Virus record (IMG/VR): IMGVR_UViG_3300031951_001142
Location: 1 to 24,807 of that record
DNA: 24,807 bases
Origin: a virus
Strand: one strand, 5' to 3'
The translations under genes were made by a program, and so were the position numbers. Below are positions 3,404 through 20,693 of this stretch, in pieces (the stretch's first letter is position 1; every line of letters begins with the position of its first letter). A model generated the notes under the pieces. It saw only the letters and a program-made list of their open reading frames with translations. It was not told the origin of the DNA and did no database searches.

Positions 3404-3413
3404 TTCCTAGCAT
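3404..3413 (+). promoter_or_regulatory. TTCCTAGCAT motif before the portal gene
   Basis: TTCCTAGCAT ends 9 nt before the portal ATG. The same ten bases precede the protease/scaffold gene and the gp10-like gene. There is no Shine-Dalgarno between motif and ATG. TAGCAT fits the TANNNT pattern of a -10 box, which would give an essentially leaderless mRNA, but no good -35 is visible. GCAT (3410-3413) can also pair with ATGC at the start codon (3423-3426). Function is inferred. Confidence 0.4.
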
Positions 3414-3422
3414 CGGCCCCCT

Positions 3423-5108
3423 ATGCCCGAGCTCACCATCAACGCCGACGACCTGCGCGCGCTCGTGCGGTCGCGCGAATCGCTGCTGTACGGCTCGCTC
3501 GACGAGAAACGCCCGCGGGCCTGGAGTCAGTTCGGGTATCCCGAGACGCTGACGCCCGACCGCCTGCTGTGCGCCTACCTGCGCGGCGGCCCGGCCTTCC
3601 GCGCCGTGCACCACGTGCTCGACCGCTGCTGGCAGGAATGGCCGCGGGTGAAGCTGAAGGCCAGCGACGACGAATCGACCTGGGAGACCCGGCTGCAGGG
3701 CATCCTGGAGAAGGTCGCCGCCTGGCCGAAGCTGCAGGACTGGGACCGCCGCAACATGGTCGGCCGCTTCTCCGGCCTGATCCTGCGCGTGGCCGACGGG
3801 AAGCAGCTGCGCGAGCCGCTGATGCGCGCGTCGCGGCTGGTCGACCTGGTGCCGGTGTACGAGCACCAGCTCAAGGTGACGGCGTGGGACAGCGACAGCG
3901 CGAGCGAGACCTTCGGCCAGCCGACCATGTGGCAGTACCGCATGCGCACCAGCGACCGCCAGGACACCCAGGGCAAGCCCGAGCAGTGGGTCGACGTGCA
4001 CCCGAGCCGCATCCTGATCCTGGCCGAGGGCGCCGTCGGGGATGACTTCTTCGACGGCATCCCGCTGCTGCAACCCGGGTTCAATGCCTTGGTCGACCTG
4101 GAGAAGGTCAGCGGCGGAGCGGCCGAGAGCTACCTGAAGAACAGCGCCCGCACGCTGCGGTTCGTCTTCGACAAGGATGCCGACCCGACGAAGCTGGTGC
4201 AGCCGAGCACGCCCGGCGCGGCCGTGACGTCCGACGACGTGCGCGCCACGATCAACGACCGCGTCGACCGGCTGAACAGCAACGTCGACAGCGCCATCGT
4301 CGGCCAGGGCGTGACGGTGGACACGCTGCAGACCACGATGCACGACCCGCGCGGCGCCTGGGAGATCGCGGCGAACACCTTCGCGGCGGCCGTGGGCATC
4401 CCGTTCACCATCTTGTTCGGCCAGCAGACCGGCCGCCTGGCCAGCGACGAGGACAAGGCCGCCGACAACGCCCGGTGCAAGTCGCGCCAGCGCAACCTGC
4501 TGACGGGCGCCGTGACCGCCGTCATCCGCCGGCTGCAGGCCTGCGGCATCGTCGAGGCCTCGGACTTCGAGGTCGAATGGGCGCCGCTCGACGCGATGGG
4601 CGACGACGCGAAGGCCGACCAGGGCGGCAAGATGGCCACGATCAACAAGGACATGGTCGCCGCCGGCCGGAGCGCCCCCTTCAGCGAGAACGAGATCCGC
4701 AAGGTGCTGGGGTACGAGGAGGAGGCCGAACTCGACGACATGCCGGGCGAGGGCGACCCGGACGACGACGATCTCGACCCGCTGCCGGCGCGCGACGAGC
4801 CCCCGCCGCGGCCCGCGCCGACCGGCAACGCCGTCACCGTGCTGCCGGCCGCGCCCGACCTGACCGGCCACTTGAACGCCGCCATCGGCGCCATGCGCGC
4901 AGCTGCTGAGCGGCCCATCGCCGTGCACGTGCACCAGGCGCCGGTGCAGGTCAACGTCCCGCCCGCCGAGCTGCATGTGCACCAGGGCGACACGCACGTC
5001 ACGGCCAAGATCGAGGGCCGCGGCACGGTGATCCGCACGCCCGTGCATGACGAGAAGACCGGCCGCATCAAGCACGTGATCGAGAAGCCGGCCGAGGGCG
5101 GCGCGTGA
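3423..5108 (+). CDS. Portal protein, DUF1073/HI1409-like
   Basis: 561 residues. The body (about 40-440) carries the features of DUF1073/DUF935-type portals: a tyrosine/tryptophan-rich N-terminal clip, and the segment around GIPFTILFGQQTGRLASDED, followed by a long helix (ARCKSRQRNLLTGAVTAVIRRLQ). Portals form the dodecameric ring at one capsid vertex through which DNA is packaged and the tail attaches. After an acidic stretch (EEEAELDDMPGEGDPDDDD) and a proline linker comes a His/Val-rich tail (about 498-530, HVHQ twice) and a C-terminal strand segment (RGTVIRTPVHDEKTGRIKHV). Such tails occur in related portals. The gene follows the terminase by 26 nt and lacks a Shine-Dalgarno; a TTCCTAGCAT motif lies just upstream. 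Some databases name this family after an anti-CBASS protein; nothing here supports that activity. Confidence 0.88.
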   Translation: MPELTINADDLRALVRSRESLLYGSLDEKRPRAWSQFGYPETLTPDRLLCAYLRGGPAFRAVHHVLDRCWQEWPRVKLKASDDESTWETRLQGILEKVAAWPKLQDWDRRNMVGRFSGLILRVADGKQLREPLMRASRLVDLVPVYEHQLKVTAWDSDSASETFGQPTMWQYRMRTSDRQDTQGKPEQWVDVHPSRILILAEGAVGDDFFDGIPLLQPGFNALVDLEKVSGGAAESYLKNSARTLRFVFDKDADPTKLVQPSTPGAAVTSDDVRATINDRVDRLNSNVDSAIVGQGVTVDTLQTTMHDPRGAWEIAANTFAAAVGIPFTILFGQQTGRLASDEDKAADNARCKSRQRNLLTGAVTAVIRRLQACGIVEASDFEVEWAPLDAMGDDAKADQGGKMATINKDMVAAGRSAPFSENEIRKVLGYEEEAELDDMPGEGDPDDDDLDPLPARDEPPPRPAPTGNAVTVLPAAPDLTGHLNAAIGAMRAAAERPIAVHVHQAPVQVNVPPAELHVHQGDTHVTAKIEGRGTVIRTPVHDEKTGRIKHVIEKPAEGGA

Positions 5109-5518
5109 ACGGCGCCTACACGACGGCCCTGGAGGGCCTGCTCGACCGCACGGTCGACCTGACCGGCGACGTGCGCGTGGCGCTGGTGCGCTCGACCTAC
5201 ACGCCGGATCTGGACTTCGACGCGGTGCTCACCGACCTGGGCGGCGCGATCAACGGCCGCAGCGGCACGCTGACCGGCGCTGAGTTCACGGCCGGCACCT
5301 TCGACGCCGACGACACCACGCTGACTGCCGACGCGGCCGTGGCCTGCAACGCGCTGGTGCTGTACGTGCACACCGGCGACGACAGCACGGCCCGGCTGGT
5401 GGCCTACGTCGACGACCCGGCTATCGGCCTGCCCTTCACGCCGGCCGCAGGGCAGGGCGTCAACATCGTCTGGGACAACGGACCCGGGCGCATCTTCAGC
5501 ATCAGGAGAACCGCATGA
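5105..5518 (+). CDS. Phage structural protein, small beta-rich
   Basis: 137 residues starting with GTG; the GTGA overlap with the portal stop shows translational coupling. The N-terminus (TVDLTGDVRVALVRSTYTPDLDF) and the middle segment LDADDTTL-like (FDADDTTLTADAAVACNALVLYVHTGDDS) match a plan I know from many tailed phages, where proteins of 120-150 residues with a beta-sandwich appearance sit among head or fibre genes and end with an aromatic strand (here GVNIVWDNGPGRIFSI). Their exact place in the virion is mostly unknown. It is the first of six small structural genes between portal and minor head protein. I infer a virion-surface or fibre-associated role. Confidence 0.7.
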   Translation: MNGAYTTALEGLLDRTVDLTGDVRVALVRSTYTPDLDFDAVLTDLGGAINGRSGTLTGAEFTAGTFDADDTTLTADAAVACNALVLYVHTGDDSTARLVAYVDDPAIGLPFTPAAGQGVNIVWDNGPGRIFSIRRTA

Positions 5519-5955
5519 GCATGAGCAACACCGCCGAGACCGCGCTTCTTCGGCTGCTTTTCCAGAACACCGCCTTCGCCAACATCGGCGACGCCAGCGG
5601 CCTGCAGCCGTCGGCCGCCGCGGGCAGCTTCTTCGTGCGCCTGCACACCGCCGACCCCGGCGAGGCCGGCACGGGCGACACGAGCGAGGTGGCGTACACC
5701 GGATACGCCCCGGTCGGCGTGGCGCGCAGCGCCGGCGGCTTCACCGTGACCGGCGACCAGGTGAGCAACACCGCGACTGTGCAGTTCGGCGAGTGCACTG
5801 CGGGCAGCGCGACGGCCACGCACTTCAGCGTCGCCATGGGCGCGGGCGCGGGCGCGGCCATTCTGTACCGGGGCGCCCTCAGCGCGGCGCGCAGCATCAG
5901 CGCCGGCATCACGCCGCTGTTCAACCCGGGCGCTCTGACGGGCACGGTGAACTGA
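5515..5955 (+). CDS. Tail-fibre-like / Gp80-like structural protein
   Basis: 146 residues. The opening NTAETALLRLLFQNTAFANIGDASGLQPS and the FFVRLHTADPGEAGTGDTSEVAYTGYAPV block are characteristic of a widespread small phage protein usually annotated as tail fibre protein (the mycobacteriophage gp80-like family). The rest is alternating Gly/Ala/Thr strands. ATGA overlap with the previous gene and AGGAGA at 5504-5509 support the start. The family is commonly found beside structural genes; a proven function is lacking as far as I know. The position next to the portal, not the tail, suggests attachment to capsid or neck, which is inference. Confidence 0.75.
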   Translation: MSMSNTAETALLRLLFQNTAFANIGDASGLQPSAAAGSFFVRLHTADPGEAGTGDTSEVAYTGYAPVGVARSAGGFTVTGDQVSNTATVQFGECTAGSATATHFSVAMGAGAGAAILYRGALSAARSISAGITPLFNPGALTGTVN

Positions 5956-6815
5956 TGCTGGATTCGCTGTCGGCCATCAATCGAGCCTTCGATGAGGGCC
6001 GGTGGCATCTGCAGCGCTTCACCAAGAACGCGGGCACGGCCTACGCGCTGCAGTGGGCTGACCCCACCTTCGCGTCCGGGCAGCCGGCCTACGATGCCCA
6101 CGTCGGCGCCGCGCTGGCCTTCACGCCGACCGTGGCCGTGCGCAACGATGCGATTTACTTCCCCGACTGCGCGCCGGGCCAGGAGCGCCGGCTCATCAGC
6201 GCCACGTTCCGCGGCGCGCAGGGCGGCGGCTTCAACGGCGCCGAGAGCTTCGTCGTCTATGACCTGCTCGGCTTCTACCCGCTGATCGACGGCGACAGCA
6301 CCGACGAGCAGGCGATGGACAACACGGCCGCGCTGCCGCGCTACAGCAGCGGGGATGGCGTCTGCGCCGTCATGGTCAACCACGTCGCGCCGGCCGTGCA
6401 GGGCGGGGTAGGGCTGCTGACGTACACCGACGCGGCCGGCGTGCAGCGCAGCAGCACCATCGGCGTGCCGCTGAACGGGGTCAACCTCGTCTGCAGCAGC
6501 GCACGCGACACCGTGGACCTCGATGTCGGCCCGCTGGCGATGAGCCTGAACGCGCCGCGGGGCGTGCGGCGGATCGACGCCATCCAGTACACGACGCCAC
6601 CCGGCGGCCTGCACGCGATCTACCTGATCCGGCCGCTGGCCACCGTCGTCGGCGGCGACAACCTGCTGGCCGTCGAGAAGGACTTCTACCGCTCCGGCGC
6701 GCTGCACTGCCCGCGCGTGCACGACGGCGCCTGGCTCGGCTTCTTCAACCGCATCGGCTCCGGCACCGCGCGCTCTGTCGCGTGGTGGGGCCATTTCACC
6801 TTTGCCTGGGGCTAG
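5955..6815 (+). CDS. Virion structural protein, first of a tandem paralogous pair
   Basis: 286 residues from the ATG at 5955, chosen because it overlaps the previous stop (TGATG); the frame stays open further upstream, but that part lies inside the preceding gene. The protein is rich in Gly, Ala, Thr and aromatic residues, without signal peptide or membrane segment. It aligns end to end with the product of the next gene: TAYAL/AAYAL near the N-terminus, a conserved xYDLLGFYP / VDVQGYWP strand, PRYSSGDGV / PRYTDGAGL, LIRPLATV / LCRPLAQI, and a shared CPRVHDGAWL / LPRVQDGACL followed by an F-x-WG end. Proteins of this plan occur as virion proteins in many large phages. I infer a capsid-surface or fibre component. 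Confidence 0.75.
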   Translation: MLDSLSAINRAFDEGRWHLQRFTKNAGTAYALQWADPTFASGQPAYDAHVGAALAFTPTVAVRNDAIYFPDCAPGQERRLISATFRGAQGGGFNGAESFVVYDLLGFYPLIDGDSTDEQAMDNTAALPRYSSGDGVCAVMVNHVAPAVQGGVGLLTYTDAAGVQRSSTIGVPLNGVNLVCSSARDTVDLDVGPLAMSLNAPRGVRRIDAIQYTTPPGGLHAIYLIRPLATVVGGDNLLAVEKDFYRSGALHCPRVHDGAWLGFFNRIGSGTARSVAWWGHFTFAWG

Positions 6816-6817
6816 AC

Positions 6818-7699
6818 ATGCCGATCGCATCAATGGACCAGCTGGTCGCCGCCATCAGCGCCGGCAAGACGACCCGCTACGACTGGAACAAGATCACGGG
6901 CGCCGCGGCCTACGCGCTGGGCCGGTGGTATGACCTGAGCGCGCTCGCGGGCCTGCCGGTGGCGAACAGCTACCCTGGCACGGCCCTGGCCTGGCGCGCG
7001 TGCGATGAGAGCACCGGCAACGGCACCGACATCTTCGGCATTCCGCACGGCGGCAACGTGACGGCGGACGTGAAGCACCTGCTCAACATGGCCGCATGGA
7101 GCACGGCGGCCACGGGCGTGCCCGGCACGCTGATGCTGGTGGACGTGCAGGGCTACTGGCCCGGCATCAACATGAACGTCGCCACGCTGCAGACCCTGAC
7201 CGGCGCGCCCGCGCCGCGCTACACCGACGGCGCCGGGTTGCGGGCATTCCTGTCTGTGCGCACGACGACGGGCGCGACGGCCCATAACCTCAGCTACAGC
7301 TACACCAACCAGGCCGGCACGACGGGCCGCGTGCAGCCCGTCACGGTGTCGTGCACTGCCTCGGCCATCGTGCCGCACATCACGCACAGCGGCACGGCAG
7401 CCAACAACTACGGCCCGTTCCTGCCCCTTGCTTCGGGCGACAGCGGCATCCGCAACTTCGCCAGCGTACAACTGTCGGCGGCCTCTGGCGCTGGCACGGC
7501 GGCGCTGGTGCTCTGCCGGCCGCTGGCGCAGATCACGCTGTCGGTCGTGGGCCTGATGACCGAGAAAGACCTGCTGAACCAGATCCCGAGCCTGCCGCGG
7601 GTTCAGGACGGCGCATGCCTGACGTGGCTCTGGGGCGCCGGCAACGCGACGGCCGCGGCCACGACCTTCGCGGGCGGCGCCGAGTTCGTCTGGGGCTGA
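6818..7699 (+). CDS. Virion structural protein, second of a tandem paralogous pair
   Basis: 293 residues starting at ATG 6818, two bases after the previous stop; the frame is open 12 codons further up but only inside the preceding gene. The N-terminus (SMDQLVAAISAGKTTRYDW, then a W/Y-rich segment) and the block LMLVDVQGYWPGIN are typical of a structural protein found in many phages. It is a diverged duplicate of the gene before it: same length, same order of conserved strands, same PRVxDGA and FxWG endings. The second half contains a long Gly/Thr/Ser beta region. Likely part of the same head-surface assembly as its neighbour, possibly forming mixed oligomers; that is inference from the tandem duplication. 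Confidence 0.78.
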   Translation: MPIASMDQLVAAISAGKTTRYDWNKITGAAAYALGRWYDLSALAGLPVANSYPGTALAWRACDESTGNGTDIFGIPHGGNVTADVKHLLNMAAWSTAATGVPGTLMLVDVQGYWPGINMNVATLQTLTGAPAPRYTDGAGLRAFLSVRTTTGATAHNLSYSYTNQAGTTGRVQPVTVSCTASAIVPHITHSGTAANNYGPFLPLASGDSGIRNFASVQLSAASGAGTAALVLCRPLAQITLSVVGLMTEKDLLNQIPSLPRVQDGACLTWLWGAGNATAAATTFAGGAEFVWG

Positions 7700-7700
7700 C

Positions 7701-8453
7701 GTGGCGATGTACCCGAACGGGCGCTATCTGACGGCGACAGCCGGGCGTCAGTTCGGCCCCGGCGCGGGGCTCGAGGTGCTCGGCCGGAACCTGGGCGACC
7801 GCTTCGCAAAGGGCTTTGGCACGTTCGCGCCGACTGCCAGCGCCCCGGACGGCTACGGCATGGCCGGGCTGGTGCCGCCGCGCGTGGCCGGCAGCATGTC
7901 GGCGCTCGGCCCGGTCGCCGCTGTCGCGGGCGCTGCCTCGCTGCTGCAGGGCGCCCCGATGATCGGCACGGCGGCCATGACGCTGACGCCCGACCCCGCA
8001 TCGCTGGGGCTGGTGGTCTCCATGTCGGGCGACGGCGCCTTCAGCCTGGCGGGCGCTGGCAGCTTGGCCGGCGTGGTGCAGCTCACCGGCACCGCGGCGC
8101 TGTCTTTCGCCGGCACCGCGGGCCTGTCCATGATCGTGCCCTTCGAGGGCGCGGGCTCCTTCTCGTTCGCCGGCAGCGCGGACCTGCGCGGGCGCCTCAG
8201 CATGCAGGGCGAGTGGACGCCGTTCACCGCGCTGTCGCCCGAGGGCCTGGCTGCCGCGGTGTGGGAGCGCATCATCGAGTCCGGCTTCAGCGCTGAGCAG
8301 GTGCTGCGCATTGTTGCCGCGCAGGCCGCCGGTGACGCGACCGGCCTCGAGGGCCCGTCTGCCGTCTTCAAGTCGCTCGACGGCACGAAGAACCGCATCG
8401 CCGGCACGTACAGCGCCGGCACCCGCAACGTCACGTCACTCGACGGTAGCTGA
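7701..8453 (+). CDS. Repeat-containing phage structural protein
   Basis: 250 residues from GTG 7701; ATG 7707, two codons on, is an equally good start. After an N-terminal 60 residues the protein has about five tandem 20-residue repeats (69-168) of Gly/Ala/Ser with alternating hydrophobics, for example SGDGAFSLAGAGSLAGVVQL, suggesting a beta-solenoid or trimeric beta fibre. The C-terminal 75 residues (EGLAAAVWERIIESGFSAEQ, then AVFKSLDGTKNRIAGT and ending in VTSLDG) are a module I recognise at the ends of many phage structural proteins, probably for assembly. It overlaps the next gene by 1 nt (TGATG). Likely a short fibre or spike associated with the head; location inferred. Confidence 0.72.
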   Translation: MAMYPNGRYLTATAGRQFGPGAGLEVLGRNLGDRFAKGFGTFAPTASAPDGYGMAGLVPPRVAGSMSALGPVAAVAGAASLLQGAPMIGTAAMTLTPDPASLGLVVSMSGDGAFSLAGAGSLAGVVQLTGTAALSFAGTAGLSMIVPFEGAGSFSFAGSADLRGRLSMQGEWTPFTALSPEGLAAAVWERIIESGFSAEQVLRIVAAQAAGDATGLEGPSAVFKSLDGTKNRIAGTYSAGTRNVTSLDGS

Positions 8454-8887
8454 TGAGCGCGCTCGGCCGGTGGCTCGGTTCCTGGGCCGGCCGCTGGTAC
8501 GGCGCGGCGGGTGGCGAGGGGCCGCCGCCTGCGCACGTCATCGAGGCCCGCGGCGTTGCGGTCGACGTTACGGTCGGCCGCCCCAGCGTCACGCCGGTCG
8601 CTCCGCCCGAGCCCGAGCCCCCAGCCGTCGGCGGATGGTCGGCACCGTGGAAGCCCGCGCCGCGCCGCGTCACCGCCGCGCCGGTCCTCGCCGAGGCCCG
8701 CGTCGGCAGCCCCCGCATCACGCTGCAGCTGCGCGCGGTGCATGCAGGCATGCAGGCATGCAGCGCCGGCCGCCCGCTGGTGCTGACCGACCCCGTGCCG
8801 CCGAAGCGCCGCGCAGCGCCGAAACCGACCGGGCCGACGCCGGCCGAGCTGCAGGCCGAGGACGAGCAGCTGCTGCTGATGGACTGA
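8453..8887 (+). CDS. Small phage protein with Trp/Gly-rich N-terminus
   Basis: 144 residues. The start overlaps the preceding stop (TGATG). The N-terminus SALGRWLGSWAGRWYGAA belongs to a W-G-rich motif seen at the start of small proteins next to phage structural genes carrying the same C-terminal module as the previous gene, so the two probably work together. The rest is Pro/Ala/Arg-rich and probably disordered, with two short similar segments (IEARGVAVDVTVGRPSVT and LAEARVGSPRITLQL), and an acidic C-terminus (QAEDEQLLLMD). Function is unknown. The DNA includes a short tandem repeat at 8741-8763. The reading frame uses the same GC-rich codons as its neighbours. Confidence 0.65.
   Translation: MSALGRWLGSWAGRWYGAAGGEGPPPAHVIEARGVAVDVTVGRPSVTPVAPPEPEPPAVGGWSAPWKPAPRRVTAAPVLAEARVGSPRITLQLRAVHAGMQACSAGRPLVLTDPVPPKRRAAPKPTGPTPAELQAEDEQLLLMD
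8741..8763 (+). repeat. Three tandem copies of an 8-bp unit
   Basis: The unit CATGCAGG occurs at 8741 and 8749, with a third copy at 8757 ending before the last G (CATGCAG). Each copy borders a GCATGC palindrome. The unit is not a multiple of three, so gain or loss of a copy would shift the frame of the gene that contains it. Confidence 0.7.
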
Positions 8888-8894
8888 CCCGACC

Positions 8895-9845
8895 ATGATG
8901 AACCGCATCCGCCCCCGCTCGCCCATCATCCCGGGCGACACGACCGACCGCACCGGCAGCGGGCCCGTGCAGCGCCGGGCGATCAAGGCCATCCGCCAGC
9001 GCTGGGCTGGGCTCACGGCCGAGGTGCTGGCCATATTCGCGCGCATCCGGGTGATCGGCGAGGTCGCCCAGAACGACACCAGCGGCACGCCGCGGACGAT
9101 CTACGCCCTGACCCCCGAGGAGCTCGCCGCCGTAACGCAAGCGTTACGCGAGGCCTTCGACCGCTGGATCGAGGCCGTGGCCGGCGGCAGCTACCGGACG
9201 CACTGGTACGCGCAGATCGACGCCGATGCCGCCCAGCTCGGGCTGGCGCAGACCGTGGCGAACCTGACCGCGCTGTCGGCCACCTACTCGGCCTCGCGCA
9301 ACATCGGCGCGGCGCTGATGAGCCAGGGCTTCCAGAACCGCGTGGCCATGGCGCAGATCAAGTCCTACGAGCACTGGGTCGGGCTGTCGGCCGGCGAGAA
9401 GTCGGCGCTGTCGCAGATCATCGGCCGCGGCATCGTCGACGGGAAGAACCCGCGCGTGGTGGCGAAGGAGATCGCCGAGCGCATGGGGGTGTCGCGGGCT
9501 CGGGCTGAGGGTTACGCGCAGACAGACGTGACCGACACGCTGCGCATGGCCCGCCTGGATGAACGCGACTGGGCAGTCGAGAACCTGGGCATGGACATCG
9601 GCCTGCTGTGGAAGTCGGCGCTGATCCCGACGACCAGGCCGACCCACGCGGCGCGCAACGGCCGCACCTACACCAGCGCCGAGGTGCGGGACTTCTACAG
9701 CCGGGACGGGAACATCTACCGCTGCCACTGCAGCGTGACCGAGGTGCTGCTCGACGACGACGGCCGCCCGATGCTGACCGACCGGGCGAAGGAAACTAGC
9801 CGCACCGAGCTGGCCGCGTGGCGCAGGAAGCAGCCCGCGCGCTGA
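8895..9845 (+). CDS. Minor head protein, Mu gpF / SPP1 gp7-like head morphogenesis
   Basis: 316 residues. The C-terminal domain is the recognisable part: YAQTDVTDTLRMARLDERDW, then LWKSALIPTTRPTHAARNGR, TYTSAEVRDFYSRDGNIYRC and HCSVTEVLLDDDG. This is the phage Mu F-like (SPP1 gp7) head morphogenesis domain, including its conserved Cys/His end (YRCHCSV). The N-terminal 200 residues are mostly helical. Such proteins are present in few copies, bind the portal and are needed for infectious heads, probably through DNA ejection. ATG 8895 (followed by a second ATG) lies 7 nt after the preceding stop; no Shine-Dalgarno is seen. The gene ends the first transcription block: a strong terminator follows. 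It also holds an unusual palindrome at 9131-9148. In related phages it usually follows the portal directly; here six genes intervene. Confidence 0.9.
   Translation: MMNRIRPRSPIIPGDTTDRTGSGPVQRRAIKAIRQRWAGLTAEVLAIFARIRVIGEVAQNDTSGTPRTIYALTPEELAAVTQALREAFDRWIEAVAGGSYRTHWYAQIDADAAQLGLAQTVANLTALSATYSASRNIGAALMSQGFQNRVAMAQIKSYEHWVGLSAGEKSALSQIIGRGIVDGKNPRVVAKEIAERMGVSRARAEGYAQTDVTDTLRMARLDERDWAVENLGMDIGLLWKSALIPTTRPTHAARNGRTYTSAEVRDFYSRDGNIYRCHCSVTEVLLDDDGRPMLTDRAKETSRTELAAWRRKQPAR
9131..9148. repeat. Perfect palindrome with 8-bp arms inside the minor head gene
   Basis: CGTAACGC-AA-GCGTTACG: two 8-bp inverted arms around an AA spacer. In the coding frame it reads Val-Thr-Gln-Ala-Leu-Arg with GTA for Val and TTA for Leu, codons that are rare in this GC-rich sequence. 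It could be a protein-binding operator or an RNA hairpin; no function is shown. Confidence 0.6.
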
Positions 9846-9855
9846 TCCGTAGCAT
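9846..9855 (+). promoter_or_regulatory. Variant of the TTCCTAGCAT motif (TCCGTAGCAT)
   Basis: Directly after the minor head stop, TCCGTAGCAT is followed 5 nt later by an ATG (9861). The match covers TAGCAT and the GCAT/ATGC pairing of the other copies, but the only frame behind this ATG runs antisense through the minus-strand genes and does not look coding. It may be the remnant of a gene start lost when the minus-strand cassette was inserted. Confidence 0.25.
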
Positions 9856-9918
9856 CGCCCATGCCGGCTAGGGGTGGCCGGTTCATCGTTGTTGTCTCCT
9901 GCCCTCGCGGGCACCTCG

Positions 9919-9951
9919 GCCCCGGCGTCGCAAGGCTCCGGGGCTTTCTTT
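9919..9951 (+). terminator. Rho-independent terminator after the first head block
   Basis: GCCCCGG (9919-9925) pairs with CCGGGGC (9938-9944) across a 12-nt loop and is followed by TTTCTTT (9945-9951). A small GCCC/GGGC hairpin precedes it at 9901-9912. It would stop + strand transcription before the oppositely oriented cassette. The GC stem could also work on the minus strand, but no T-run is present in that direction. Confidence 0.75.
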
Positions 9952-9953
9952 CG

Positions 9954-10121
9954 TCAGAGCCCTCGGACGGTGTTGCCGTAGAACCGCACGCGCTGCAGCT
10001 CGGCCTCGTGCTCGCGGCGCCGATCCTCGCGGTCTTCGCGCAGCCGGCTCATGTAGCCGAAGTGCCAGCCGAAGAAGGCGCCGATCAGGACGCCGATGCA
10101 GAGCCAGACGAAGGCGGTCAT
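9954..10121 (-). CDS. Small single-pass membrane protein, 55 residues
   Basis: Reading on the minus strand from ATG at 10121 to TGA at 9954 gives 55 residues. The start overlaps the stop of the upstream minus-strand gene (ATGA), a strong sign of translational coupling. Residues 2-23 form a hydrophobic helix (TAFVWLCIGVLIGAFFGWHF); the remainder is a charged, Arg/Glu-rich cytoplasmic-type segment (SRLREDREDRRREHEAELQR) likely to be helical. This plan is seen in small inner-membrane phage proteins such as spanin parts, holin-like or superinfection-exclusion peptides, but no motif decides between them. With one helix and a short basic tail it lacks the layout of common holins. Function unknown. 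Confidence 0.65.
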   Translation of the reverse strand: MTAFVWLCIGVLIGAFFGWHFGYMSRLREDREDRRREHEAELQRVRFYGNTVRGL

Positions 10122-10675
10122 CGCGTCGCATCCTCAGAAAGCCGCGCCAGCAGCGCCAGCTCGTCGGCGCTGAACGTCGCATCCACGCCGCCAGTCCCGG
10201 CCCGCTTCAGCAGGTCCGACCCCTCGGACTGCACCACGAGGCGGACGTAGCGGCGGAGGAGGTCGGCATGGTCAACGCTGTCGGCTGGGAACTCGATCTT
10301 CTTCAACGTGACGCCGCCGTGGTCGACGTAGAAGTCCGCCCCCACCATCACCAGGACGCCGCCAAGCTCGGCAGCAATCCGCAGCGCGGCTTCGTGTCGC
10401 GTCAGCGGCCAAGAAGGGGCGTGGATGGCGCGATCGGGGGCGGCGTGGTCGACGGCGCCCGGCTGCGGCTCCGGGATGCGGCCGAGCAGGCGGCCTTCCA
10501 TGAGCGCGAGCCCGAACCAACTGTCAGGCCACCCCTCAAGCCGGAAGACCTCCTCGTCGCCGTCAATGACGGAGATCATGCCGCTCCAGACCTGCACGAC
10601 TTCGACGTCGCCGTTCGGTCGCTGGAGCCAGTACCAGCCGTCGGGCGGCGGCGCTGTAGGATCTACGGTAGCCAT
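10118..10675 (-). CDS. Unknown protein of a minus-strand moron-like cassette
   Basis: 185 residues on the minus strand from ATG at 10675, supported by AAGGA about 9 nt upstream. The first 60 residues (PPPDGWYWLQRPNGDVEVVQ, then GWPDSWFGLALMEGRLLGRI) look like a small tryptophan-rich beta domain of a kind common in phage accessory proteins; the second part is mixed alpha/beta with a central segment (AALRIAAELGGVLVMVGADF) and a charged C-terminal helix. No catalytic motif, signal peptide or membrane helix is visible. It is co-transcribed with the 55-residue membrane protein whose start overlaps its stop. Opposite orientation, own upstream region and a flanking terminator are typical of morons, which often serve the lysogen (exclusion, defence or fitness). 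Specific function not recognised. Confidence 0.7.
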   Translation of the reverse strand: MATVDPTAPPPDGWYWLQRPNGDVEVVQVWSGMISVIDGDEEVFRLEGWPDSWFGLALMEGRLLGRIPEPQPGAVDHAAPDRAIHAPSWPLTRHEAALRIAAELGGVLVMVGADFYVDHGGVTLKKIEFPADSVDHADLLRRYVRLVVQSEGSDLLKRAGTGGVDATFSADELALLARLSEDATR

Positions 10676-10740
10676 GAGGCGGTTCCTTCGCTGAGTGGTC
10701 AGAATCCCGGGGTCGATTCGCAGTCGCCTCGGGCTTCGCC

Positions 10741-10769
10741 ATTGTGGGGCCCGCGACAGTGCCGCGCAA
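10741..10769 (-). promoter_or_regulatory. Weak promoter candidate for the minus-strand cassette
   Basis: On the minus strand, TTGCGC (10764-10769) and CACAAT (10741-10746) are separated by 17 nt, the standard spacing, and point towards the 185-residue gene about 65 nt downstream. The -35 matches only in its first three bases. It lies in the 117-nt divergent gap, where a promoter is expected; no better pair was seen. Confidence 0.25.
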
Positions 10770-10774
10770 CGCCG

Positions 10775-10784
10775 TTCCTAGCAT
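10775..10784 (+). promoter_or_regulatory. TTCCTAGCAT motif before the protease/scaffold gene
   Basis: An exact copy of the motif found before the portal gene, ending 8 nt before the ATG at 10793. Here the adjoining bases form a hairpin, CATGC (10782-10786) with GCATG (10791-10795), which encloses the start codon. After the terminator and the opposite-strand cassette, + strand transcription must restart in this gap, which favours a promoter role. Confidence 0.45.
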
Positions 10785-10792
10785 GCGCCGGC

Positions 10793-12115
10793 ATGAAGCA
10801 ATCGCGCGTGCACATCCTGTCGGCGGTCAACGCCGGCGCCGTGTCCAAGTCGGGTGGCCGGTACACCGTGGCGAACGTCGTCGGCTGTGTCGACGGCCTC
10901 GTGATGAACGGCATGCTGTACCCGGGCGAGCAGCTGGCCTCGGCCGCGCCGTCCCTCGAAGGCAAGCCCGCACCCGCCGGCCACCCGAAGGACGACGCCG
11001 GCCGCTACATCAGCGCGCTGAGCGGGAATGCCCTGCTGACCAGCTACGCGGGCGCCGTGTGCACGAACGTGCGGCACGAGGGCGGCCGGACGCTGTACGA
11101 CGTCGTCGTCAACGAGGCCCAGGCCAAGGCGCACCCGGACGGCGCGAAGCTGGTCGAGCGGCTCGAGGCGGCCATGAACGGCAGCAACGCCGAGCCGATC
11201 CACGTGTCGACCGGCCTCTTCTGCAAGGCCATCACGGCCAACGGCGAGAGCCTGGGCAAGAAGTACCAGCGCATCGCCACCGAGATCACCTACGACCACT
11301 CGGCCTTCCTGCTGAACGAGAGCGGCGCCGGCACGCCGGAGCAGGGCGTCGGCATGTTCCTGAACGCGGCCGGCGAGGCTGAGCAGGTCGAAGCGGTGGC
11401 CGTGAACGAGGCGCTCGACCGGCGCGGCGAAGGCCTCGGCTCGTGGGCTCAGGGCCTGCTGCGCAAGCTGCTGGGCAACGAGGACGAGCTCAGCCTCGAT
11501 CAGATCCGCGACGGCCTCTACAAGGGCCTGCCGAAGGGTGGCTGGGTCCGCGAGGTCTTCGCGCGCTACGCCGTCTGGTCAGACGCTGACGGCCGGATGT
11601 ACCGCCAGGACTACACCGTGGCTTCGGATGGGTCGTCCGTAGCATTTTCTGGGACTGCTCAAGAGGTGCGCGAGAAGCGCGAGTACGAGCCGATCAACAA
11701 CCTGCAGAAGGACGCCATGAAGGACATGCTCATCGCCGCGCTGAACGCCGCCGGCATCAAGACCGAGGGGCTGACCGAAGCGCAGCTGCTGTCGGCCTAC
11801 AACCAACACGTCAGCACCGCGGCCGTCGCCCCGGTGCAGGCCAAGCTCGACGCCGCAAACGCGCAGCTGCAGACGCTGCAGGCCAACGCGCAGCAGGCCG
11901 AAGCCGCCGAGCTGGCGACGCTGGCCACCGAGCTGGCCGCCAACTCCAAGGGCCTGACCGCCGACGACTTCAAGGCCATGGGCCTGAAGCGCTGCAAGGA
12001 GCTGAAGGCCAACGGCACGACCGCTGCGCCGGTGCTGCCGGGCGCTGGCGCCGCAACCGGCTCGGGCGAGCGCCAGCGCTACAGCCTGAACGAAGACTTC
12101 ACCAAGACCGCCTGA
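10793..12115 (+). CDS. Prohead protease with C-terminal scaffold region (DUF2213-like)
   Basis: 440 residues from ATG 10793; the open frame extends upstream, but that part is antisense to the minus-strand gene. Residues 1-200 resemble DUF2213/prohead protease-like proteins: the segment CVDGLVMNGMLYPGEQLA, then AGHP (His64) and HVSTG (Ser139), with TYDHSAFLL at 166-173, are candidates for the catalytic His/Ser and product-binding strands. A middle domain (about 232-300, GWVREVFARYAVWSDADGRM) is the insert often seen in this family. From 340 to 385 the sequence becomes an Ala/Gln-rich coiled coil (QAKLDAANAQLQTLQANAQQ), typical of scaffolds. The fused product would guide capsid assembly and then be cleaved. 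It lies before decoration and capsid genes, the expected place. Catalytic residues are inferred. Confidence 0.82.
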   Translation: MKQSRVHILSAVNAGAVSKSGGRYTVANVVGCVDGLVMNGMLYPGEQLASAAPSLEGKPAPAGHPKDDAGRYISALSGNALLTSYAGAVCTNVRHEGGRTLYDVVVNEAQAKAHPDGAKLVERLEAAMNGSNAEPIHVSTGLFCKAITANGESLGKKYQRIATEITYDHSAFLLNESGAGTPEQGVGMFLNAAGEAEQVEAVAVNEALDRRGEGLGSWAQGLLRKLLGNEDELSLDQIRDGLYKGLPKGGWVREVFARYAVWSDADGRMYRQDYTVASDGSSVAFSGTAQEVREKREYEPINNLQKDAMKDMLIAALNAAGIKTEGLTEAQLLSAYNQHVSTAAVAPVQAKLDAANAQLQTLQANAQQAEAAELATLATELAANSKGLTADDFKAMGLKRCKELKANGTTAAPVLPGAGAATGSGERQRYSLNEDFTKTA

Positions 12116-14319: not shown

Positions 14320-15996
14320 ATGGCCACGATCCAACCTGACAGCATCTCGGTCGCGTCGAGCGTGACGACGGCCTACGCGGGGCGGGCTGCGCCTACGCCG
14401 CCGCCCCCGCCCCCGCCGCCACCCCCGGCCCCTGCGTTGACCCTCGTCCCCGGCACGGCCAGCGCCACGGTAGGCGTGGCCGCCACCGGCTGGCGCGTGG
14501 ACAACACCGGCAGCGTGCCTGCCGCGGCCAGCGTCAACGTGCCCGCCGAGCTGTCCAGCAGCTTCAGCAACGGGCAGACCATCGCGGCCGGTGCCAGCGT
14601 GGCCTTCACCCTCACAGCGCTCGTGTCCGGCGCGCGCAGCGTGGCGCTCAGCAGCAGCACCCCGGGCGCGGTCATCAGCGGCAGCCCGGGCACGTTCACG
14701 GGCGTGTCGGCGCCGCCCCCGCCCCCGCCCCCGCCCCCGCCCCCGCCGCCGCCGCCGCCGCCAGCCCCGCCCGACTACATCAAGGCCCCGCCGGCCGGCG
14801 TCTCCAGTCTCGCTGCGCTCATCGGCGACAGCAACACCGAGCACAGCTTCAGGTCGACCCAGGCCTACTGGCGCAACGGCCTGCTGGGCGGCGTGCTGGA
14901 CATGCGCGCCAACAGCGGCAAGTCGGGCGTCGCCATCCTCGACCTGATCAGCCAAGTCGACGCCGTTTACACCAACGGCAGCAACCCGGGATTGCAGGGC
15001 CTGCCTCCGCTGGGCTGGGTGATCCTGCAGTTCGGGACCAACGGCTGGCGAGGTGTGACCTCAGTCGACTCGACCATGCGCTCGCAGTTCACCACGTTGG
15101 TGAACAAGCTCAAGCTGGTCGCTGAGCACGTCGTGATCATCACGATGCCACCGGCCGGCGGTGTCACCACGCCGCGCGCGGCAGGCTACCCGGTGGTCCG
15201 TGCGTACTTCCAAGAGTTCGTCCTCGCGGACTCCTCGAATCGCACCCACCTGATCGACGGCTGGGGCAGCACCATCGACAGCAGCGGGAACATCATCCCC
15301 GAGATGTGGCTGGTGGACGAGTACCACCCGAGCGGCGCCGGCTCGCGCCAGGTGGCGCTGACCGAGTTGCCCCAGTGGCAGGCCCTGCTGGCGAACCAGA
15401 GCTACGCCCGCGCGCCGTTGGTCACAAGCGCGGCCGACGTGTTCCCGGCCCAGCCGCAGTGGATCAACAACCCCACCGCCACGGGCACCGTCAGCGTCAG
15501 CGGCGCGTGGACTGGCACGCTACCCACCGGCTGGAACATCGGCACCAACGGCAGCGGCATCGGCGGCACGGTGGAGATCATCCCCGCGACTGCCGGCGAC
15601 CCGAACCCGGTGCCCTGGGTGCGCATCCGCCCGACCACGCAAAGCAGCTTCGCGCAGATCAGCCTGACGTTTGCCGCCTCGGGCCGGGCCATCACCGCGA
15701 GCGACCCGAGCGAGCTCGAGCAGTTGGTCGAACTGCGCTTCAACGGCATGCAGCGTTTCAACCAGCTGGAGTTCTGGATCCAGGCCGCCGGCTCCGTCAA
15801 GTTCGTGCAGACGGCCTACCTGCGCTGGGGCCCGACCATCGGCGCTAACGAGCAGGTTGTGTTGCGTCAGCGGTACTACCGCGATTCGTCCACGGTCGGC
15901 GGCACTCCGCTGGGCGTCATCTACATCTACAGCGTGGTCGCGGGCAGCGGCGACGTGGGCTACATCGACGTGCGCTGCCCGTCGGTGAGGGGGTGA
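14320..15996 (+). CDS. SGNH-hydrolase virion protein with polyproline linkers
   Basis: 558 residues in clear modules: a 24-residue N-terminus; ten prolines (27-36); an Ig-like beta domain (about 40-130); seventeen prolines (132-148); an SGNH/GDSL hydrolase (about 160-360); and a beta-rich C-terminal region (about 365-558). All four SGNH blocks are present: GDSN with Ser171, Gly200 in NSGKSG, GTN with Asn241, and DEYH with Asp333 and His336. Enzymes of this fold on phage particles can remove acetyl groups from surface polysaccharide, as shown for the coliphage G7C tailspike gp63.1. No signal peptide is seen, so I infer a virion component whose enzyme is held away from the particle by stiff linkers. 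Substrate is unknown. Placement among connector genes is unusual. Confidence 0.83.
   Translation: MATIQPDSISVASSVTTAYAGRAAPTPPPPPPPPPPAPALTLVPGTASATVGVAATGWRVDNTGSVPAAASVNVPAELSSSFSNGQTIAAGASVAFTLTALVSGARSVALSSSTPGAVISGSPGTFTGVSAPPPPPPPPPPPPPPPPPAPPDYIKAPPAGVSSLAALIGDSNTEHSFRSTQAYWRNGLLGGVLDMRANSGKSGVAILDLISQVDAVYTNGSNPGLQGLPPLGWVILQFGTNGWRGVTSVDSTMRSQFTTLVNKLKLVAEHVVIITMPPAGGVTTPRAAGYPVVRAYFQEFVLADSSNRTHLIDGWGSTIDSSGNIIPEMWLVDEYHPSGAGSRQVALTELPQWQALLANQSYARAPLVTSAADVFPAQPQWINNPTATGTVSVSGAWTGTLPTGWNIGTNGSGIGGTVEIIPATAGDPNPVPWVRIRPTTQSSFAQISLTFAASGRAITASDPSELEQLVELRFNGMQRFNQLEFWIQAAGSVKFVQTAYLRWGPTIGANEQVVLRQRYYRDSSTVGGTPLGVIYIYSVVAGSGDVGYIDVRCPSVRG
14398..14427 (+). repeat. First proline-codon tract (10 codons)
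   Basis: Ten consecutive proline codons, mostly CCG and CCC, encode residues 27-36 of the SGNH protein. The minus strand carries several runs of five G here and could form a G-quadruplex. It precedes the Ig-like domain and acts as a stiff spacer in the protein. Confidence 0.8.
14713..14763 (+). repeat. Second proline-codon tract (17 codons)
   Basis: Seventeen proline codons: alternating CCG and CCC giving a CCCCCG hexamer array, then pure CCG ending in CCA. It encodes residues 132-148 just before the SGNH domain. Such an array is prone to copy-number slippage in whole codons, so linker length may vary between related phages. Confidence 0.85.
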
Positions 15997-20676: not shown

Positions 20677-20686
20677 TTCCTAGCAT
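20677..20686 (+). promoter_or_regulatory. TTCCTAGCAT motif before the gp10-like gene
   Basis: Third exact copy of the motif, ending 7 nt before ATG 20694. CATGC (20684-20688) and GCATG (20692-20696) form a 5-bp hairpin enclosing that start codon. There is no Shine-Dalgarno. The motif itself contains an in-frame ATG (20685), an alternative start three codons earlier. Confidence 0.42.
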
Positions 20687-20693
20687 GCCCGGC

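Follow-up and report, generated by a model that had tools for sequence, protein, structure and literature searches.

An optional leader-led gene pair between conserved head genes in an uncultured phage clade

Comparison with related viral contigs shows that two small minus-strand genes of an uncultured phage, which we call A185 and B55, belong with their leader to an optional unit, found whole or not at all, between conserved head genes. The same comparison shows a shared leader standing before differing cargo, cargo proteins that are mosaic, and cargo that diverges faster than the genes on either side. Our leading explanation, held tentatively, is that leader, A185 and B55 make up an exchangeable unit that acts at the inner membrane to exclude competing phages or abort their infections.

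The site and its occupancy among relatives

The window, by which we mean the whole stretch of DNA analysed, is a single virus record of 24,807 bases with about 70% GC, and is probably an incomplete piece of a genome. Profile searches place on its plus strand the genes for terminase large subunit, portal, head morphogenesis (HM), a phrog_760/DUF2213-type head protein (SC), head decoration, major virion protein and tape measure. HM (8895-9845, plus strand; phrog_758, E 3.9e-72; PF04233 Phage_Mu_F, E 3.5e-10) forms the left flank of the site and SC (10793-12115, plus strand; phrog_760, E 4.8e-86) the right; SC reaches the Pfam family DUF2213 at E 0.074 only, and the phage records that match it label it a DUF2213 protein, prohead protease or coat protein. 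At 54-60% identity, SC has relatives in genomes named Roseateles, Pseudacidovorax, Rhodoferax and Comamonas and in a Burkholderiaceae MAG, so we take the wider host group, at group level only and not as the window's own host, to be Burkholderiales; two further, more distant matches are to Henriciella and Novosphingobium. The window's phage is an uncultured one, kin to phages of Burkholderiales bacteria. A second variable stretch lies at about 4774-8898, where some 4.1 kb of plus-strand genes from portal to HM, members of phrog_644 and phrog_240 among them, correspond to about 0.6 kb in the related contig L008, and at 14437-15996, amid virion genes, a protein matches phrog_6102, a lipase of the moron category, at E 2.4e-12.

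The inserted unit, comprising leader, A185 and B55, occupies about 816 bp (9954-10769, minus strand) that are missing from relatives in which the site is empty. By blastn, window 9801-9953 aligns with L008 4825-4977 and window 10770-10850 with L008 4978-5058; a stricter alignment run put the junctions at 9951/4974 and 10770/4978, and the ends of the insert are uncertain by a few bases. The site is empty in L008 and L009, whose HM protein is 98% identical to the window's, and in L020 too. The insert runs from the stop codon of B55 to a promoter-like -35 hexamer, and so looks like a whole transcription unit minus its terminator. Its GC content (0.686, against 0.705 with an sd of 0.022 for the window) lies within one standard deviation, so composition shows no mark of recent foreign origin. 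An assembly chimera is unlikely because the cassette is also found in another contig, L002, with 99.56% nucleotide identity over 4047 bp and both proteins 100% identical.

Relatives of SC were found at 76 loci, and both flanks could be placed in 60 of them, the other 16 being dropped as lacking an HM flank, cut, or too distant. The spacing between HM and SC across these 60 was at least 400 bp in 30, under 150 bp in 23 and intermediate in 7, with a maximum of 2620 bp. Because many loci are near-duplicates, the close relatives (SC 81-93% identical) were sorted manually into 12 site types: window/L002, L003, L004/L005, L006, L007, L008/L009, L010, L011, L012/L013/L015/L019, L014/L016/L017, L018 and L020. 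Leader and minus-strand cargo occur together in four types (window, L004, L006 and L007, counting the first cargo genes of L006 and L004, which were located by tblastn and reading), two types are empty (L008 and L020), and in the remaining six the site is taken up by small genes on the plus strand, by a predicted lipoprotein or by noncoding sequence. Predicted lipoproteins, their lipobox judged by eye, are cargo in the sister types L003, L004 and L012. Farther afield, the two head genes are directly adjacent in Pseudomonas phage JBD44 and 370 bp apart in Cronobacter phage ENT47670, and in Escherichia phage ASO78B a stretch of about 7.5 kb, with genes in either orientation, separates the orthologous head genes; the interval is thus variable well beyond the window's clade. 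At the same site, a noncoding stretch of about 430 nt (L012 4562-4992; L014 and L018 4561-4992; L004 4556-4992; L003 2516-3006) has a final 290 nt or so that is nearly invariant while the flanking genes are only about 90% identical; an exact 21-mer from it was found in 11 viral contigs, every one of which belongs to the set compared for this site, and the stretch matched nothing in Rfam and no tRNA.

An earlier note on this DNA had described the pair as a moron-like cassette, of a kind that often protects the lysogen. The anatomy stands, with the site empty in L008/L009 and L020, variable content elsewhere and no late start motif on the pair's own strand, and the comparison of syntenic sites that the note proposed found presence and absence, the pair not being conserved at the site in all relatives. 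A protective role gained no support: no family was matched, no terminator follows the pair in its own direction, and the clade is not demonstrably lysogenic. In the broad sense of the word, in which the flanking genes adjoin where the unit is absent, L008/L009, L020 and JBD44 make the unit a moron, and its absence from relatives would fit a unit that phage growth can do without. A strict moron is flanked by its own promoter and its own terminator and is expressed from the repressed prophage, and here no terminator was found in the unit's direction: the scanner lists no intrinsic minus-strand terminator within about 650 nt downstream of the pair (near 9300-9956), and the minus strand there holds no 8-mer with at least six T. 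We therefore file the unit as a moron in the broad sense only.

Signals at the borders and in the leader

To the left, at 9846-9956 on the plus strand, alignment A2 and folding point to a structured, RNA-like element of three hairpins, the last of which appears to be the terminator of the upstream head operon. The element begins with CGTAGCAT (9848-9855), contains a near-invariant GTCTCCT stretch and an AGGGGT loop, and recurs in L003, L004, L006-L012, L014, L020, L022 and possibly L036 (1907-2022). In alignment A2 (11 sequences), 7 of 24 pairs show two-sided changes and 97.9% of cells are paired, values reached by none of 500 shuffles; the independent covariation events are nonetheless few, because much rests on three divergent rows (L006, L020 and L022), of which L022 is imperfectly aligned. 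Single-sequence folds of five copies beat shuffles by only a modest margin (z -0.4 to -2.6), and Rfam offered no credible match. The 3' hairpin folds and is followed by a T-rich tail, and compensatory changes support it; a simple terminator scanner with a loop limit of 8 missed it. The element as a whole may represent a small RNA, or it may be no more than a leader followed by a terminator.

To the right, just beyond the insertion, the next head gene, SC, has the start-associated motif TTCCTAGCATG (10775-10785, plus strand), recognised from motif counts, so the pair does lie between a terminator and a restart motif, as the earlier note had it. The string CCTAGCAT occurs three times in the window against 0.13 expected, a number that none of 100 shuffles reached; the longer pattern shows no enrichment when two mismatches are permitted (3 against 2.18 expected). 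In the form CTYCCTAGCAT, the motif lies in the window at 3404-3414, 10775-10785 and 20677-20687, and it is also present in loci L003-L065. Over these loci (63 of the 76), CCTAGCAT has 109 distinct contexts on the late strand and 4 on the other, and it is absent upstream of A185 on the minus strand. TAGCAT stands 5-10 nt before a start codon in 63 distinct contexts, with a Shine-Dalgarno-like stretch in one of them, and 18-38 nt before it in 57, with such a stretch in 37; no conserved -35 accompanies it. Because the near class is without Shine-Dalgarno sites and the far class mostly has them, the pattern suggests that TAGCAT is a -10 element and that the near class consists of leaderless late genes. 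Among the papers listed by a literature search on the core string, none dealt with these phages, which is no proof of novelty. The start-associated sequences of cluster K mycobacteriophages, as described in PMC3203893, are likewise short, strand-biased and placed immediately before many gene starts; the sequence there is GGGATAGGAGCCC, whereas the motif here is CTYCCTAGCAT, its near class preceding starts that lack Shine-Dalgarno sites.

The cassette has a leader of its own (10676-10769, minus strand), with TTGCGC (10769-10764), a 17-nt spacer, CACAAT (10746-10741), a hairpin-prone stretch and a Shine-Dalgarno-like AAGGA. These roughly 95 nt ahead of A185 are near-identical in L007, very similar in L006 and diverged but recognisable in L004, and the genes behind the shared leader differ among the window, L006, L007 and L004. 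The pattern TTGCGS-17-CACAAT is kept in the leaders of all four site types; it is a weak sigma70-like match called by eye, and the promoter scanner listed none. We infer that the leader would act as a sigma70-like promoter, driving leftward transcription independently of the late genes. Against shuffles, the leader folds no better in the window (z -0.2), moderately better in L007 (z -1.9) and strongly better in L004 (z -3.8). Its 15-mer core, GGCGACTGCGAATCG, is shared by 37 stretches of viral contigs, the whole leader recurring only in those at the site (L093, L101, L105, L111 and L120). The idea that the core marks a widespread RNA hairpin was dropped, since hairpin-like copies in L116 and L122 fall in apparent coding sequence, and no copy of the leader was found as an operator in the close relative G002.

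The gene pair and its mosaic cargo

A185 (10118-10675, minus strand, 185 residues) and B55 (9954-10121, minus strand, 55 residues) both start with ATG, and their reading frames overlap by ATGA. Chance open reading frames are common at 70% GC, and coding potential was therefore tested. Codon log-odds are +58 for A185 and +37 for B55, whereas six frames that overlap them or lie nearby score -23 to -105; per codon, A185 scores 0.32 bits, half of the 0.68 bits of B55, and third-position GC is 0.84 for A185 and 0.93 for B55. Both genes look protein-coding, and with exact reading frames, these scores and relatives encoded elsewhere, the two overlapping minus-strand genes that had been proposed at 9954-10675 are confirmed. 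So is the single-pass membrane protein of 55 residues: B55 has one hydrophobic stretch, from residue 1, with a best 19-residue Kyte-Doolittle mean of 1.98, followed by a charged C-terminal tail. The best such mean in A185 is 1.46, so it has no clear membrane segment and is predicted to be soluble.

Neither protein was recognised in the earlier note, and family searches agree. A185 matches no family at E<=1 in Pfam, NCBIfam or PADLOC and has a best PHROGs value of 0.095; B55 likewise has no family in these collections, with insignificant PHROGs matches; and no exclusion, defence or anti-defence family was matched by either protein in Pfam, NCBIfam, PHROGs or PADLOC, the last giving no match for seven proteins at E<=1. 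Assignment of B55 to the LapA domain (PF06305) was rejected: E is 9e-5, but the score is 22.7 bits against a gathering score of 28, and the L006 homologue scores 13.6 bits. Homologues of A185 were absent from 50,697 phage records, 72,556 plasmids and the viral contigs beyond the window's clade, and 399 Burkholderiaceae-type genomes gave 11 weak matches (E 1.7e-4 to 0.0095), many within long frames of other proteins. A single-sequence scan with B55 returned L002 only, and six genomes carrying SC relatives held no B55. The structure model of A185 (mean pLDDT 47.8) is too poor for a fold search, and that of its N-module (mean pLDDT 66.9) has no BFVD or PDB match at E<=0.001. The idea that this module might be DUF551 was abandoned: Pfam gave no match, and 3 of the 50 listed fold matches of the same model carry that name, but at E 2.3-2.8. 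DUF551 is absent from 150 genomes of the same family.

What relatives there are reveal a patchwork. The N-module of A185 (about residues 1-70) is 54% identical over its first 70 residues to the cargo of L007 and 47% to that of L006, the last 48 residues (the C-module, about 138-185) match, at 90% identity, the end of an L004 protein that differs elsewhere, and the B55 homologue in L006 is 73% identical. The two ends of A185, and B55 as well, recur apart from one another among relatives, and L007 and L004 have relatives of parts of A185 with no recognisable B55; it is from gene overlap only that a partnership of the two may be inferred. Cargo changes faster than its surroundings, because in these loci the proteins on either flank keep 87-95% identity (95% and 87% for L007, 88% and 88% for L006) against 54% and 47% for the N-module. 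As a rough guide, the sequences being short and partly saturated, dN/dS is 0.35-0.91 in five cargo comparisons, all below 1, and 0.09-0.35 in eight comparisons of flanks.

Possible function and known systems

Exclusion or abortive defence is our first choice because known exclusion genes, as described in PMC10884400, PMC7067206 and PMC9936078, are often small, orphan, membrane-linked and similarly placed. B55 would be anchored in the inner membrane by one helix, its charged tail probably cytoplasmic, with A185 as a soluble, fast-changing partner. Together they might exclude or abort infection by competing phages, either from a prophage or early in infection, and one could imagine that A185 supplies the specificity and B55 the membrane step.

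Another possibility is that the same unit serves the lytic cycle, in which its own sigma70-like promoter would switch it on early, for host takeover or counter-defence and not for protection of a lysogen. Although we hold it with less confidence, this is nearly as likely as exclusion because the clade is not demonstrably temperate: a tyrosine integrase was found in 7 of 21 records tested, all seven of them more distant relatives, and none lies within the 37.6 kb of G002. Distant relatives also carry minus-strand cargo at the site that resembles early or regulatory genes, a KorA/TrfB-like gene (L043, E 1.3e-7) and a phrog_2201/transcription-regulator-like gene (L052), and L058 has a Bro-N protein there on the plus strand. 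However, the close clade has none of these regulatory genes, no anti-defence family was matched, and prophages are common in the wider group, the more distant relatives being prophages. G002 does have a YdaS/Cro-like regulator; in L130 8640-9080, the YdaS/P22-Cro-like gene faces TAGCGC..CGCTA inverted repeats over a promoter-like stretch, an arrangement that resembles an immunity-type control region but has no repressor that we recognise. G002 also encodes an RNA ligase 1-like protein (L130 17529-18083; PF17720, E 9.3e-11).

We consider it unlikely that the pair is a passenger, neutral or in decay, which chance recombination has left as orphan debris in a tolerant stretch between genes. The patchwork of A185, its codon score at half that of B55 and a cargo dN/dS above that of the flanks would fit, but the frames are intact and overlapping, none of the five cargo comparisons reaches a dN/dS of 1, the leader is kept across site types, and the cassette is preserved in L002. 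A role in lysis, with B55 as a holin-, antiholin- or spanin-like accessory, seems very improbable: ASO78B does have lysis genes between its orthologous head genes, and B55 and an L006 relative have weak holin PHROG (E 0.044 and 0.16) and i-spanin (E about 1) matches, respectively, but all of these matches are insignificant, no endolysin adjoins the pair, and near relatives lack it. Least credible of all is a virion component, suggested by the location amid head genes, given the opposite strand, the absence from relatives with a 98% identical HM, and a late start motif that is missing upstream of A185 and biased 109 to 4 to the late strand.

Exclusion remains our preferred reading. A more specific model, which we regard as doubtful, makes the site a cassette-exchange platform, with the conserved three-hairpin RNA element and its terminator on the left, a leaderless late promoter on the right and swappable minus-strand cargo behind a shared promoter-leader; the cargo would be an exclusion device in two parts, pairing a variable soluble sensor of reassorted modules with a more constant one-helix membrane effector. 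If exclusion or host control is the right reading, an uncultured phage clade would offer a cleanly bounded variable site where small anti-phage or host-control genes can be found by position, with the shared leader as a handle for finding further cargo; the start-associated motif, which suggests leaderless late genes, and the covarying RNA element are specific, testable side results.

RexAB of phage lambda is a two-gene exclusion system that combines a soluble with a membrane protein, RexB having several membrane segments. A185 and B55 share the soluble-plus-membrane arrangement and, as proposed here, the exclusion role, but we saw no sequence relation, and B55 has one membrane segment where RexB has several. 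PMC7067206 names RexAB as a moron locus and describes another, STMMW_20121 of prophage ST64B, which lies antisense to lytic genes with its own promoter, a position called characteristic of morons. The unit resembles it in antisense placement and in a putative promoter of its own; expression of STMMW_20121 was seen by RNA-seq, whereas that of the unit is predicted (PMC7067206). Exclusion genes are likewise described for Fc02 (PMC9936078), and Ltp is an example of lipoprotein cargo known in exclusion (PMC3952083), the kind of cargo predicted here in the sister site types L003, L004 and L012. P2-like phages have defence hotspots between two conserved genes (PMC9122126), and both they and the present site are small, high-turnover loci in such a position; the hotspots described carry recognised and tested defence systems, unlike the unrecognised cargo here. 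In Pseudomonas phage JBD26, Tab is an 83-residue moron between terminase genes with demonstrated anti-phage activity (PMC10884400). Like the unit, it is a small orphan protein between conserved late genes in some relatives only and has its own promoter (a predicted one in our case); Tab is one gene within a late operon, whereas the unit has two opposite-strand genes, one for a membrane protein, known from sequence alone. Set beside these systems, the unit is an accessory insert of an ordinary kind, with unusually clear boundaries and new genes.
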